Shown here in pieces: positions 1,852 to 33,203 of a stretch of 64,000 bases of DNA. Under the pieces are notes generated by a model. The model was not told where the DNA came from. It made no database searches and worked only from the letters and a program-made list of their open reading frames with translations. The translations under genes were made by a program, and so were the position numbers. Origin of the DNA: Thermoleophilaceae bacterium (lineage in GTDB: Bacteria; Actinomycetota; Thermoleophilia; Solirubrobacterales; Thermoleophilaceae); the NCBI GenBank assembly GCA_030446485.1, contig JAUJNF010000002.1, forward strand, positions 124,001-188,000, given 5' to 3'. Position 1 is the stretch's first letter, and each line of letters opens with the position of its first letter.

Positions 1852-2272
1852 GCAGCTCCCGCCGCAGCTCCGCCATCCGCAGCACCGCCCGCGCCGCCTC
1901 CTCGCCCGAGTGTCGATTCCCGCCACCGCTGCGAGCCAGCGCCTGCTCCATGTTGTCCACCGTGAGCACCCCGAACGCACACGGCACGCCGGTATCCAGT
2001 CCCACCCGCGCGATCCCGCGCGCCGCCTCGCCACACACGTAGTCGTAGTGGTCGGTCTCCCCGCGGATCACCGCGCCGAGGCAGGCCACCCCCGCGTACC
2101 GACCCGACCCAGCGCAGTACGACGCCGCCAGCGGCAGCTCGAACGCCCCCGGCACGTCGTGCACCTCCAACTCGGCGCCGGCTTCCTCGAAGACACCCGT
2201 CGCCCCCGACACCAGCCGCTCGGCCAGCTCCTCGTAGAAGCGGGCCACCACCAGCGCGTAGCGGTCAGGCAC
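1844..2272 (-). CDS. ribH: 6,7-dimethyl-8-ribityllumazine synthase
   Basis: '[15 protein letters not shown]...[11 protein letters not shown]...[22 protein letters not shown]' typical of RibH; in riboflavin cluster. Confidence 0.95.
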
Positions 2273-3559
2273 GCGGCGCGTCGTCGGCCGCGTCGCGGTC
2301 GTGCACCCGCTCCTCGTGGATCATCTCCTCGTCGAGCGCGAGCCCCTGGTGGTGGAGCATGTGTCCCATCCGGTCGCGCTTGGCGCGCAGGTAGGCGCGG
2401 TTGCGGTCGGTGGCCGGATGCTCGATCGGCACCTGCTCGCTCACGCGCAGCCCGTAGCCCTCGAAGCCCACGATCTTCTTCGGGTTGTTGGTGAGCAGGC
2501 GGATCGAGGTGAGGCCCAGGTCCACGAGTATCTGCGCCCCGATGCCGTAGTCACGCAGGTCGGCGGGCAGGCCGAGCTCGAGGTTGGCGTCGACGGTGTC
2601 CATCCCGGCCTCCTGCAGCTTGTAGGCGCGCAGCTTGTTCAGCAGGCCGATCCCGCGGCCCTCCTGGGCCAGGTAGAGGAGGACGCCGCGACCCTCCTCC
2701 TCGATCCGCCGCAGGGCGTCCTCGAGCTGCTGGCCGCAGTCGCAGCGCTGCGAGTGGACACGTCACCGGTGAGGCACTCGGAGTGCACGCGCACGAGCAC
2801 GTCCTCCTCGCCCGAGACGACGCCCTTGACCATCGCCACGTGGTGCTTGTCGTCGATGGTCGTGCGGAAGCCGACCACGTTGAAGTCGCCGAAGTCGGTG
2901 GGCATCTGGGCCTCGACCACGCGCTCGACGAGCTTGTCGTGCCGCCGCCGGTACTCCACGAGATCGGCCACGGTGATCATCTTCAGCCCGTGCCGGGAGC
3001 AGTAGTCCACGAGGTCGGGCACGCGGGCCATCGTGCCGTCGTCGTTCATCACCTCGCAGATCACGCCGGCCGGGTTGAGCCCGGCCAGCCGCGCGAGGTC
3101 CACCGCCGCCTCGGTCTGCCCCACGCGCTCGAGCACCCCACCCGGCTTGGCCTTCAGCGGGAACAGGTGGCCGGGCTGCACGATGTCGCCCGGGCCGGTG
3201 TTGGGGTCGGCCGTGACCTGGATGGTGCGCGCCCGGTCGGCGGCGGACACGCCGGTGGTCACGCCGGTGCGGGCCTCGACCGAGACCGTGAACGCGGTCT
3301 GGTACGGCGTCTCGTTCTTGGCGGCCATCAGGTTCAGGCCGAGCTCGTCGCAGCGCTCGGGCGTGAGGGCGAGGCAGACGATGCCGCGCCCCTCCTTGGC
3401 CATGAAGTTCACGGCCTCGGGGGTGGCGAACTGCGCGGCGAGCGTGAGGTCGCCCTCGTTCTCGCGGTCCTCGTCGTCGCAGACCACCACCATCTTCCCG
3501 GCGCGCATGTCCTCGAGCGCCTCCTCGATGGTGCTGAACGGCCTCTCGGGGGCGCTCAC
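2265..3559 (-). CDS. ribBA: Bifunctional DHBP synthase / GTP cyclohydrolase II, interrupted by a single-base frameshift near 2760
   Basis: '[32 protein letters not shown]' (RibB) and '[12 protein letters not shown]' then GCH2 C-terminus '[26 protein letters not shown]' in another frame. Confidence 0.92.
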
Positions 3560-4162
3560 GCGCTCACCGCGACACGGCCGGGAAGCAGCTTCTCCACGTA
3601 CTTGGCGAGCACATCGACCTCCAGGTTGACGCCTTGGCCGGGCGCGGCGGCGCCCAGGTTGGTCCGCTCGAGCGTCTCGGGGATGAGGGAGACGGCGAAG
3701 TCGCCCTCCCCGACCTCGGCCACGGTGAGCGAGACGCCGTCGACGGCGATCGAACCCTTCTCGACGACGTAGCGCAGGAGATCGGTGGGGGCGGTGATGC
3801 GGATCAGGCGCGCGAAGCCCTCGTCGCGCAGGGACTCGACCGTGCCGAGCCCGTCCACGTGGCCCTGGACGATGTGGCCGCCCAGCCGGTCCGCGGCGCG
3901 CAGCGGCAACTCGAGGTTCACGCTGTCGCCCGGCTCCAGCGGGCCGATAGAGGAGCGGCGCAGGGTCTCGGCCATCACGTCGGCGCCGAACGCTCCGCTC
4001 TCCGTGCCGACGGCGGTCAGGCACACGCCGTTGACCGCCACCGAGTCGCCCTCGGACAGCTCGGCGGCGAGCGGGAGGCGACGGTGAGGCGCACGCCCTC
4101 GTCGTCGCGCTCGACGGAACGCACGCTGCCGGTGTCCTGCACGAGTCCCGTGAACACCTTCG

Positions 4163-4166
<4 letters not shown>
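3556..4166 (-). CDS. ribE: Riboflavin synthase alpha chain, frameshift near 4078
   Basis: 'VFTGLVQDTGSVRSVERDDEGVRLTV' then, one frame over, 'AVNGVCLTAV...GGHIVQGHVDGLGTV...GSIAVDGVSLTV'. Confidence 0.92.
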
Positions 4167-5288
<1,122 letters not shown>

Positions 5289-28052: not shown

Positions 28053-28286
28053 ATGGGTGTTCTTGTCCAGGTTCGTGACGTGCCGGAGCATGTCCACCGC
28101 ACGCTGAAGGCCCGAGCGGCGGCGTCAGGCCTGTCCCTCTCGGAGTACCTGCGCGGCGTCCTCGGCCGCACCGCCTCCCGGCCCACCCCTGCGGAGCTCT
28201 CGGCGCGCATCGACGCCCGCGGCACTGCGGAGCTTGGAGAACCGAGCGAGGTCGCAGTCCGGGCCGTTCGCGACTCCGGCGAGTGA
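28053..28286 (+). CDS. RHH-type (FitA/VapB-like) antitoxin, copy A
   Basis: 'VQVRDVPEHVHRTLKARAAASGLSLSEYLRGVLG' RHH signature; stop overlaps start of PIN gene. Confidence 0.85.
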   Translation: MGVLVQVRDVPEHVHRTLKARAAASGLSLSEYLRGVLGRTASRPTPAELSARIDARGTAELGEPSEVAVRAVRDSGE

Positions 28287-28680
28287 CCGTCATCGACACC
28301 TCGGGCGTGGTCGATTTCCTGCTTGGCGCCGGGGTGGCCGCGGACGTCGAGGCGCTCATGGTCCGGGAGGGCGAGCTGGTAGCCCCGGATCTGCTCGTCT
28401 TCGAGGTGCTCGCCGTAATCCGCCGTCAGACCCTTCGCGGACGGCTCGGCGCGGCCCGCGCCGCCGGGGCCGTGCAGGACCTCGGCGACGTGCCGATCGA
28501 GCTCGTGCCCTCACTCCCCCTGCGCGGCCGGCGTGGGAGCTGCGCAACAACCTGACGGTGGCCGACGCGCTGTTCGTGGCCCTCGCCGAACAACTCGGAG
28601 AGCCGCTGGCCACCAAGGACTCGGCCTTGGCGGCCGCAGCCGCGAAACACGCTGCGGTCGAGGTGGTACTGCTCCCGAGC
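28185..28680 (+). repeat. Direct repeat copy A (antitoxin C-terminus + PIN gene)
   Basis: About 496 bp aligned by eye to 32699-33194 with one mismatch (ggcactg vs ggaactg). Confidence 0.92.
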
Positions 28681-28689
28681 ACGCTTTGA
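28283..28689 (+). pseudogene. VapC-like PIN-domain toxin, copy A; -1-type frameshift at a C5 run near 28514-28518
   Basis: 'MTVIDTSGVVDFLLGAG...VAPDLLVFEVLAVIRR' then, in the next frame, 'ARPAWELRNNLTVADALFVALAEQLGEPLATKDSAL'. Confidence 0.8.
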
Positions 28690-28710: not shown

Positions 28711-28847
28711 CGTTCGAGTCGTGTGGTAGTAACCCCGGCTCCATGAACGGCCTGCAGCGACAGACGGGCCATGCGGGCCAACCGCGACGCCTTCGACCAC
28801 TGGCGGATCGTGCCGCGGATGCTGCGCGACGTCTCGCGGCGCGACAC
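28711..28847 (+). pseudogene. 5' remnant of an alpha-hydroxy-acid oxidase gene, with internal deletion
   Basis: Matches 29671-29726 (upstream region + 'atgaacggcctgcagcgacagacgg') joined to sequence like 29862-29940 ('ccatgcgggccaaccgcgacgccttcgacc...'). Confidence 0.75.
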
Positions 28848-29000
28848 GCGGAGCCGCGCAGCAACACCGCGGCAGCGGCCTCGAGCGCAACGGTCGGCTC
28901 GCTGTCGCCGCGGGCGTCGCGGGGTCCTCCGCGGGGGGCCACTCCGCTAGGGGCTGGTGAAGCGGGCTCGCCTCCGGCTCGCTCGGTACCGTGTGGCTCA

Positions 29001-29623: not shown

Positions 29624-29701
29624 GCGGCGTCGGGCCCCGGAAGCCGACGCTGGGCGGGCCGGGCGGAACACATTCGAGGGGTGTGGTAGGAACCCGGGTC
29701 C

Positions 29702-30991
29702 ATGAACGGTCTGCAGCGACAGACGGCGATCTACCTGCAAGGCGTGAGCGGCCGCCGGTCGCCCGTGTCCACCGACGCTACCCGGCTCGAGGGCCACGCG
29801 CGCAGGCACATGTCGGCCGAGGCGTTCGCCTACATCGCCGGCGGGGCGGGCACCGGCCGGACCATGCGGGCCAACCGCGACGCCTTCGACCGCTGGCAAA
29901 TCGTGCCGCGCATGCTGCGCGATGTCTCCCGCCGCGACACGAGCGTCGAGCTCTTCGGTCGGCGGCTGCCCTCGCCGTTCCTCCTGGCCCCGATCGGCGT
30001 GCTCGAGATGGTGGACCGCCAGGCGGATCTCGCGGTGGCTCGCGCCGCCCGCGAGGAGGGGATCCCGATGGTCTTCTCCAACCAGGCGTCGCGACCGATG
30101 GAGGCCTGCGCCCAGGCCCTGCGCCAGAGCCCCCACTGGTTCCAGCTCTACTGGAGCACCTCGAACGCGCTCGTGGAGAGCTTCGTGTCGCGCGCGGAGC
30201 GCTGCGGCTCCGAGGCGATCGTGGTCACGCTCGACACGACGATGCTCGGCTGGCGCACCCGCGACCTCGATCTCGCCTACCTGCCGTTCCTACGCGGCAA
30301 GGGGATCGCGCAGTACACGAGCGACCCGGTGTTCCAGCACCTGCTCACCGAGGATTCCGCAAGCGCAGCGACCCCCGAGCCCCGGCCGACGCTCGCCGCG
30401 CTGCGTACGCTCGTGGAGCTCACACGCGCCTACCCCGACCGCTTCTGGCCCGCCCTGCGCTCCGGCCGCGCGCGCGCCGCGGTGCAGCGCTTCGTCCAGA
30501 TCTACTCGCGCCCGTCGCTCACCTGGGACGACCTGCCGTTCCTGCGCGAGCGCACGAAGCTGCCGATCGTGCTGAAGGGCATCCTCCATGCCGACGACGC
30601 CGCCCGAGCCGTCGACGCCGGCATGGACGGCGTCTGGATCTCGAACCACGGCGGACGGCAGGTGGACGGCGCGATCGGCACCCTCGACGCGCTCCCGGGC
30701 ATCGCCTCAGCCGTCGGCGGGCAGGTGCCGATCCTGCTCGACAGCGGCATCCGAGGCGGCGCCGACGCCTTCAAGGCACTCGCCCTCGGCGCCACCGCGG
30801 TGTGCATCGGCCGCCCGTACGCCTACGGCCTGGCCATCGCCGGGCAGGCCGGCGTGCGGGACGTGATCCAGAACTTCCGGGCCGACTTCGACCTGACCAT
30901 GGGGCTGGCGGGCTGCGCCTCGGTCGAGGAGATCGACGAGGATGCGCTCAGGGAGGTGCCGGGCGGGGCTCGGGCGACGGCCGACGATTAG
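29702..30991 (+). CDS. FMN-dependent alpha-hydroxy-acid oxidizing protein (lactate 2-monooxygenase-like)
   Basis: 'YIAGGAGTGRTMRANRDAFDRW...PFLLAPIGVLEMVDRQADLAVARAAREEGIPMVFSNQAS...VWISNHGGRQVDGAIGTLDALPGI...LDSGIRGGADAFKALALGATAVCIGRPYAYGLA'. Confidence 0.93.
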   Translation: MNGLQRQTAIYLQGVSGRRSPVSTDATRLEGHARRHMSAEAFAYIAGGAGTGRTMRANRDAFDRWQIVPRMLRDVSRRDTSVELFGRRLPSPFLLAPIGVLEMVDRQADLAVARAAREEGIPMVFSNQASRPMEACAQALRQSPHWFQLYWSTSNALVESFVSRAERCGSEAIVVTLDTTMLGWRTRDLDLAYLPFLRGKGIAQYTSDPVFQHLLTEDSASAATPEPRPTLAALRTLVELTRAYPDRFWPALRSGRARAAVQRFVQIYSRPSLTWDDLPFLRERTKLPIVLKGILHADDAARAVDAGMDGVWISNHGGRQVDGAIGTLDALPGIASAVGGQVPILLDSGIRGGADAFKALALGATAVCIGRPYAYGLAIAGQAGVRDVIQNFRADFDLTMGLAGCASVEEIDEDALREVPGGARATADD

Positions 30992-31024: not shown

Positions 31025-32059
31025 CTAGGAGTAGGCGACCTGCCCGCGCGGTTCGCTGACGGCAGTCCCGCCGCTTCCGGCCTGGCGAGGCCCGCGGGCG
31101 ACGATCGCCGCCCCGAACCCGAGCGCGATGCACAGCGGGAGTAGAGCGTCAGGTCGAGCTGCGCAAAGACGGAGTCGAGACCGCCGATCAGGTCGACCGG
31201 GATGAAGAGCGCCCCGCGGGCCACGAGGACTAAGGCGACGCTCCAAGTAGCAGCCCGGAGAACCCGCTCGCGACGGCGCGGCGCGCGCCGCCGCCGCCCC
31301 GCCCCCGGCGCCGCCGAGGCCCGCCGCGGCCGCCCAGACGAGCGGCTCCGCGGGTAGCTCGGCACCCGCTCCCACCACCCGCTCGGCGAGCGCCCGGTCC
31401 GTACCGCCCGGCCACCTCCATCCCAGCGCCCAGGCGGCGTGGATCGCGGCGACCGTGCCCAGAGCGGCCGGTACGACGATGCGGGCAGGGCGAAACATGC
31501 GGTAGCCGAGCGGAGGTCGTCCGCTGTCTCGTCCCGCGGCGGGAGGGAGCTTTCCGAGCGCGCGCCCGAGTGCGATCTCGAGCCCGTTCACGGCGCGAAG
31601 CCAGCGCGGAATGCGCGTGCGGCGCTCGAGGGATCCGGTCGCCTCGAGCTCCGCCCGATCGAACGCCGTCTCGACCATGGCGTCGTGCCAGCCGACCAAG
31701 ACGGGCAAGATCGGCCGCATCCACCGGCTCGTGTCCGCCTCCAGGATGTGGGTGAGCCGGCACCGTGCGGCCCGAGCGCGTCGAGCTCAAAGCGGTGCGT
31801 TCCCGACAGGCCCCCGTCCGGGGAGAACTCGAAGACGATCCGTCGGCCAGGCTCGTACTCGGCCACCGAGTAGCGGATCGATCCGTGACCACCGTCGGCA
31901 CCGACGCCGAGCGGGCGATCGAAGACCACCGGCTCCGCCACCCAGATGTCGGTGGCCCAGAGCCGATCGTCCCGCGCTCCCCAGCGTGTCGAGGATCTCG
32001 CCGACCGCCGCCGGTGCGGCTGCGATCTCGCGCGTGTGGATGTTGTCGATCTTCGCCAT
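31025..32059 (-). CDS. SRPBCC-like protein followed by a DUF3995-like membrane segment, frameshifted
   Basis: 'MAKIDNIHTREIAAAPAAVGEILDTLG' (32059 start), 'VAEPVVFDRPLGVGADGGHGSIRYSVAEYEPGRRIVFEF', then 'VAAIHAAWALGWRWPGGTDRALAERVVG' in other frames. Confidence 0.55.
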
Positions 32060-32068
32060 GGCGTGCCT

Positions 32069-32108
32069 CCATACGGTTGCGTACTGTCCCGCGTACGGTA
32101 GCGTATGG
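32069..32108. promoter_or_regulatory. Inverted repeat in divergent promoter, probable TetR operator
   Basis: CCATACG...CGTATGG arms with inner CGTAC...GTACG, between the SRPBCC gene (-) and the TetR gene (+). Confidence 0.65.
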
Positions 32109-32800
32109 CCATGAGCCTGTCAAAGGACGACTGGGTGCGCGCCGCCCTGTTCGCGATCGCCGAGGGCGGGGCCGCGGCGGTCGCAGTCGAGCCGCTGGCC
32201 GAGCGGCTGGGAGCCACCAAGGGCAGCTTCTACTGGCACTTCCGCAACCGGGAGCACCTGATCGCCAGTGCACTCGAGTTCTGGGAGCGCGAGGGAACGG
32301 ACGACCCGATCGCCGAGCTCGCTCCCGTCTCAGACCCCGTCGAACGGCTCCGCCGCCTGCTCGAGATCGCGATCGGCTACGAGGACGACGACGCCGCCGG
32401 ACAGGCGGACGTCGGCCTGCTCGCCGCGGCCAACGACCCGGTCGTCGGACCGGTGCTGAGGCGGGTAGCCGACAAGCGGCTCGACTTCCTCGAACGCATC
32501 TTCACCGAGCTGGGATTCACCGCCGGCGAGTCGCGCCACCGGGCCCGGATCGCCTACAGCGCCTTCCTGGGCTGGTTCGAGCTACGACGCGTGGTCCCGA
32601 ATCGGACGCCGCTCGGGCGCGAGCGGGCGGCTTATGAGCGCGCGGTGCTCAACCTCGTGCTCGCCGACCTGCCGGGCGGTCCACCCGCTAGGCCGAACAC
32701 CCCTGCGGAGCTCTCGGCGCGCATCGACGCCCGCGGAACTGCGGAGCTTGGAGAACCGAGCGAGGTCGCAGTCCGGGCCGTTCGCGACTCCGGCGAGTGA
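32105..32800 (+). CDS. TetR-family regulator with C-terminus replaced/extended by an antitoxin C-terminal tail
   Basis: TetR HTH 'LAERLGATKGSFYWHFRNREHLIASALEFWE'; last about 34 aa 'TPAELSARIDARGTAELGEPSEVAVRAVRDSGE' identical to the C-terminus of the antitoxin at 28053-28286. Confidence 0.88.
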   Translation: MAMSLSKDDWVRAALFAIAEGGAAAVAVEPLAERLGATKGSFYWHFRNREHLIASALEFWEREGTDDPIAELAPVSDPVERLRRLLEIAIGYEDDDAAGQADVGLLAAANDPVVGPVLRRVADKRLDFLERIFTELGFTAGESRHRARIAYSAFLGWFELRRVVPNRTPLGRERAAYERAVLNLVLADLPGGPPARPNTPAELSARIDARGTAELGEPSEVAVRAVRDSGE

Positions 32801-33194
32801 CCGTCATCGACACCTCGGGCGTGGTCGATTTCCTGCTTGGCGCCGGGGTGGCCGCGGACGTCGAGGCGCTCATGGTCCGGGAGGGCGAGCTGGTAGCCCC
32901 GGATCTGCTCGTCTTCGAGGTGCTCGCCGTAATCCGCCGTCAGACCCTTCGCGGACGGCTCGGCGCGGCCCGCGCCGCCGGGGCCGTGCAGGACCTCGGC
33001 GACGTGCCGATCGAGCTCGTGCCCTCACTCCCCCTGCGCGGCCGGCGTGGGAGCTGCGCAACAACCTGACGGTGGCCGACGCGCTGTTCGTGGCCCTCGC
33101 CGAACAACTCGGAGAGCCGCTGGCCACCAAGGACTCGGCCTTGGCGGCCGCAGCCGCGAAACACGCTGCGGTCGAGGTGGTACTGCTCCCGAGC
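32699..33194 (+). repeat. Direct repeat copy B
   Basis: See copy A at 28185-28680; offset 4514 bp. Confidence 0.92.
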
Positions 33195-33203
33195 CTGCTT
33201 TGA
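32797..33203 (+). pseudogene. VapC-like PIN-domain toxin, copy B, same frameshift as copy A
   Basis: First 90 aa identical to 28283-28555, C-terminal half in the second frame; GTG start overlaps stop of the TetR chimera. Confidence 0.8.

Follow-up and report, generated by a model that had tools for sequence, protein, structure and literature searches.

The antitoxin-PIN pair and its partial second copy

The stretch of DNA analysed here (hereafter the window, 64,000 nt from a Thermoleophilaceae bacterium) contains at 28053-28689 a ribbon-helix-helix (RHH) antitoxin gene followed by a PIN-domain toxin gene, organized as a toxin-antitoxin (TA) module of the FitAB/VapBC type with the PIN frame broken as sequenced. 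The antitoxin gene (28053-28286, forward strand) is intact and encodes a FitA-like protein of 77 amino acids (FitA-like_RHH, PF22513; Pfam E 3e-9), 69-77% identical to antitoxins adjoining intact PIN genes in ten genomes of the same order. PIN copy A (28283-28689, forward strand) starts with a 90-amino-acid open reading frame (ORF, 28283-28555) and has its remainder in another frame, although Pfam, once the join is masked, recognizes a PIN domain spanning the two (E 6e-12); its intact relatives are 57-71% identical and 130-132 amino acids long. Immediately 3' of this gene, positions 28713-28848 hold a remnant, approximately 90% identical, of the promoter and 5' end of an FMN-dependent dehydrogenase gene (29673-29941), from which the inner ~130 nt are missing. 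Another PIN gene of the same genome (L171, G000:C15:232353-233618) is 42% identical, and no RHH antitoxin is readable in an overlapping frame upstream of it, possibly owing to another indel.

Nucleotide comparison revealed that a 506-nt segment of this locus occurs a second time 4.5 kb downstream. The two copies, 28184-28689 (copy A, the donor) and 32698-33203 (copy B, the recipient, fused in frame to a tetR gene), both on the forward strand, differ by three substitutions and no gaps, and each comprises the last 33 codons of the antitoxin, i.e. its tail, plus the entire PIN gene. One substitution (C/A at 28223/32737) is silent (Gly) and lies inside the tail, while the others affect two neighbouring bases (28681-28682/33195-33196) close to the 3' end of PIN, so that the longest unbroken identity extends over 457 bases. 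The repeat ends are sharp, because on both sides the flanks are no more similar than random pairs drawn from the window (P 0.15 and 0.49 for the 25-nt flanks). Screening of the whole genome (assembly 76% complete) identified no copies of the segment besides these two, and a 35-nt match elsewhere.

The extent of the repeat rules out a chance similarity between the TetR tail and the antitoxin. A different history would be one in which an ancient second TA copy was homogenized with copy A by gene conversion and the fusion is old. A weak similarity of about 20 nt right after the PIN stop, seen as a BLAST extension, would be in line with such a history, but the similarity of the flanks falls within the random range and what precedes the junction in tetR is the C-terminus of a TetR protein and not of an antitoxin. 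Conversion between older paralogues was rejected on account of these dissimilar flanks, and we regard it as very improbable.

A TetR-family regulator carrying an antitoxin tail

The ORF at 32105-32800 (forward strand) encodes 231 amino acids, in which a complete TetR-family regulator (residues ~1-195) is followed by the antitoxin tail (199-231), as delimited by Pfam, relatives and AlphaFold2. Its N-terminal part contains TetR_N (PF00440; Pfam E 7e-10, above the cut-off) and no RHH domain. Its C-terminus reads NTPAELSARIDARGTAELGEPSEVAVRAVRDSGE, and the 33 residues from TPAEL onward are identical to the last 33 encoded by the antitoxin ORF (28053-28286); of the approximately 34 identical residues counted in the original prediction, the remaining Asn belongs to the junction sequence. 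The tail, whose protein sequence is unchanged from the native antitoxin, is 53-70% identical to the tails of its relatives. As had been proposed, PIN copy B (32797-33203, forward strand) overlaps with its start the stop codon of the chimera just as in the native pair, with GTGA at 28283 and at 32797-32800, so that an antitoxin-type gene again overlaps a toxin gene across the chimeric locus (32105-33203).

In the AlphaFold2 model a nine-helix TetR protein is predicted at high confidence, with an N-terminal HTH and an all-helical C-terminal domain, pLDDT being mostly above 90 in the TetR helices (most of residues 1-185). A low-confidence linker (186-199) leads to two tail helices (200-214 and 220-228) with pLDDT of about 57-81. 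The model fits a tail that is loosely attached and accessible, and which would represent an extra, potentially toxin-binding peptide on a flexible linker.

The fusion among relatives

Relatives of the TetR part were collected by scanning a single genome of each species, from which the best 80 of 554 were taken, and by searching the class. The resulting 103 proteins have a median length of 195 amino acids and end, in the alignment, just before the tail; neither the tail nor a PIN gene was found in any of them (0/103). BLAST also aligned residues 19-77 of the antitoxin weakly with the C-terminus of the TetR protein; this match was discarded as an extension of the one in the tail, because that region aligns with the TetR relatives.

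An RHH antitoxin accompanies PIN in 67 of the 69 PIN relatives, namely in all ten close ones, which belong to another family of the same order and all have an intact PIN gene, and in 57 of the 59 further ones. At the remaining two further loci, one of them in the same genome, the partner could not be read as RHH, and no TetR gene was found near PIN at any of the 59. All readable partners of the PIN relatives being RHH proteins and none of the partners TetR, the chimera is therefore unique in what was searched, and no conserved family of TetR proteins with this tail was detected among the 103 TetR and 69 PIN relatives and 399 genomes of the class.

These comparisons uphold one half of the original prediction, that recombination had generated a chimeric antitoxin: a fusion did take place, as TetR relatives end at ~195 and RHH proteins are the usual partners of PIN, while the step to a functional antitoxin is unsupported. 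The further proposal that TetR replaces the RHH domain is only partly right, because the original RHH antitoxin gene persists 4.5 kb upstream, from where its product could neutralize the toxin in trans.

The operator and the divergent neighbour

A putative TetR operator overlaps the tetR start at 32069-32108, as an inverted repeat of two 16-nt arms (CCATACGGTTGCGTAC and GTACGGTAGCGTATGG) that are 81% complementary. A tandem CCATACGGT..CGTATGG (CCATACG..CGTATGG) motif occurs upstream of tetR in relatives from Streptomyces, Nocardia, Kribbella and Actinoplanes, and at least two half-sites are present at 53 of 106 tetR loci versus 4% of random 120-nt stretches. On the other side of the operator, 31030-32059 (reverse strand) holds a divergently oriented gene whose sequence reads as SRPBCC-like and carries about two frameshifts as sequenced. 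Pieces of it match, in three frames, the gene that is divergent from tetR in actinobacterial relatives; Pfam returned no match for its fragments. The conservation of both the tandem motif and the divergent gene argues that the TetR core is an ordinary conserved regulator, complete to about residue 195, and that its operator is very probably real. The tandem CCATACGGTNNCGTATGG operators lie directly upstream of tetR at many of the loci (L029, L031, L033, L035, L036, L038, L040, L045 and others), and their strong conservation over Streptomyces, Kribbella, Nocardia and other genera points to a regulon with a predictable operator.

The PIN frameshift and the quality of the assembly

Both PIN copies carry an identical frameshift, by which the frame is lost after ~80 residues and the last two of the conserved catalytic acidic residues are removed, whereas the ten close relatives are intact without programmed frameshifting. 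The original prediction implied a frameshift by speaking of a frame-corrected PIN and took it at face value, but with the indel rate of this assembly the break may or may not be real. The riboflavin operon of the window (ribD, ribE, ribBA; 2265-5066, reverse strand), which holds the only DHBP synthase gene of the genome, contains five frameshifts within ~2 kb (at about 2759, 4072, 4235, 4368 and 4701). Protein similarity to relatives continues across the breaks, and their contexts resemble single-base gains or losses in short runs; sequencing error is the simplest reading. Elsewhere in the genome, two of approximately 39 ABC-transporter domains are split. As a further yardstick of error, rpoB was searched for, and only an N-terminal piece was recovered.

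The assembly is thus indel-rich and, with five frameshifts in the sole riboflavin operon of the window, single frameshifts there are therefore not readable as pseudogenes. The break in PIN may have the same cause, as a context-dependent error would affect both copies alike. The shared frameshift had been considered as proof of a dead toxin, and was dropped as such in view of the riboflavin operon and the split ABC domains, which make it weak evidence. At the chimeric locus, no single open frame of PIN contains all of the conserved acidic residues, a result that is provisional as the break may lie in the assembly.

The same error rate raises the question of whether mis-joining created copy B or the point at which it meets tetR. 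Besides the abundance of indels, the frameshift and the 457 consecutive identical bases common to both copies speak for such an artefact, as does the occurrence of the fusion in one genome only. However, the copies differ by three substitutions, whereas the errors inspected in the riboflavin operon resemble gains or losses of single bases; the junction is embedded in a contig of 356 kb and flanked by unique sequence on either side; and a mis-join would require two breakpoints, one at each end of the same segment. We consider an artefact distinctly unlikely.

Origin and possible function of the chimera

The chimera was probably produced by a recent partial duplication that happened to fall in frame. 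A non-reciprocal, segmental duplication would have placed the tail and PIN gene of a FitAB/VapBC-type module 4.5 kb downstream, behind an unrelated tetR gene and just where a TetR protein would ordinarily terminate. The reading frame would have been kept by luck (approximately one chance in three); with the insertion in frame, the TetR protein would have gained a C-terminal tail of 33 residues ending at the antitoxin's own stop. PIN copy B would thereby have become translationally coupled to tetR and come under the autoregulated promoter of TetR. The chimera very likely still folds, dimerizes and binds the CCATACGGT..CGTATGG operator. Should the PIN frame be open in vivo, the toxin would be held in check twice, in cis by the tail and in trans by the intact antitoxin of the RHH type; should the frameshift be real, the tail would be a passenger without a partner.

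This explanation is supported by the near-identical repeat with its sharp ends, by the TetR relatives, which stop short of the tail and lack both tail and PIN, by the RHH partners of the PIN relatives, by the conserved operator, by the modelled TetR fold with its loosely attached tail helices and by the published principle of grafting (PMC10440598). The tail, moreover, has acquired a single silent difference, too little time having passed for selection on it to become detectable. Several points weigh against the explanation. On its 3' side the repeat stops exactly with the stop codon of PIN, a tidier boundary than a random break would need to leave, and a chance and a selected origin of the fusion would look alike at the sequence level. 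The duplication itself is read from a single genome, 76% complete and with many indel errors.

A more far-reaching proposal is that the locus works as a chimeric TA module, in which TetR binds DNA and possibly senses a ligand, the tail neutralizes the coupled PIN, and a PIN:TetR complex regulates the operator. A response to a ligand would be expected from the TetR family to which the regulator belongs. The complete and unchanged tail, the preserved translational coupling and the conserved operator are consistent with this proposal, as is the fact that neutralizing tails are transferable to foreign scaffolds (PMC10440598), and the break in PIN may be an error of the kind met in the operon of the only DHBP synthase gene. 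Against it stand the frameshift that both PIN copies show as sequenced, the likewise broken sequence of the divergent neighbour, the absence of the fusion from all relatives searched and the lack of any sign of selection, for which the copies are too young; the surviving original antitoxin also makes the chimera dispensable. A working module is thus possible but unlikely. It is still more doubtful that the module was functional at birth, with a FitA-type tail turning an allosteric TetR protein into an antitoxin, such that a small-molecule signal and the level of PIN control each other.

A chance fusion by duplication remains our preferred reading, under which the chimera would constitute a rare natural fusion in one error-prone genome assembly, with a putative function. 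Its interest lies in that nature may here have joined a neutralizing motif to a DNA-binding protein by way of a young duplication, of which the donor, the product and the two ends can all still be read. Provided that the fusion is real and the PIN frame open, the locus would offer a direct test of the idea that new antitoxins could arise by such grafting; if PIN is dead, it would be an ordinary accidental fusion.

Comparison with known systems

A TetR-controlled working antitoxin would be plausible in principle. Antitoxins are modular, the Phd-C region fused to SUMO neutralizing its toxin in vivo, and a linear neutralizing motif attached to a DNA-binding domain has been proposed to suffice for an antitoxin (PMC10440598). 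According to a review, the DNA-binding domains of the antitoxins solved are of the HTH, RHH and SpoVT/AbrB types (PMC4803016). No description of a TetR-headed antitoxin of the FitA/VapB type was found in our literature search, in which TetR-type antitoxins led to one paper, on a GNAT toxin.

Three kinds of known system resemble parts of the locus at 32105-33203. With the FitAB and VapBC type II TA systems, composed of an RHH antitoxin and a PIN toxin, it shares the PIN family, the C-terminal tail and the overlap of stop and start also seen in the native pair at 28053-28689, but a whole TetR protein stands in the place of RHH and PIN is frameshifted as sequenced. The actinobacterial TetR/AcrR regulators (e.g. 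L029, L033 and L040) are about 40-55% identical over the core and have the same tandem CCATACGGT..CGTATGG operator, and the divergent neighbour is common to L033, L035, L040 and others; the chimeric locus differs from them by its 33-residue tail, its downstream PIN gene and a neighbour gene broken as sequenced. Finally, in modular antitoxins with exchangeable linear neutralizing elements, DNA-binding and neutralizing parts are joined linearly as in the chimera (PMC10440598), which differs from them in arising from a visible duplication.
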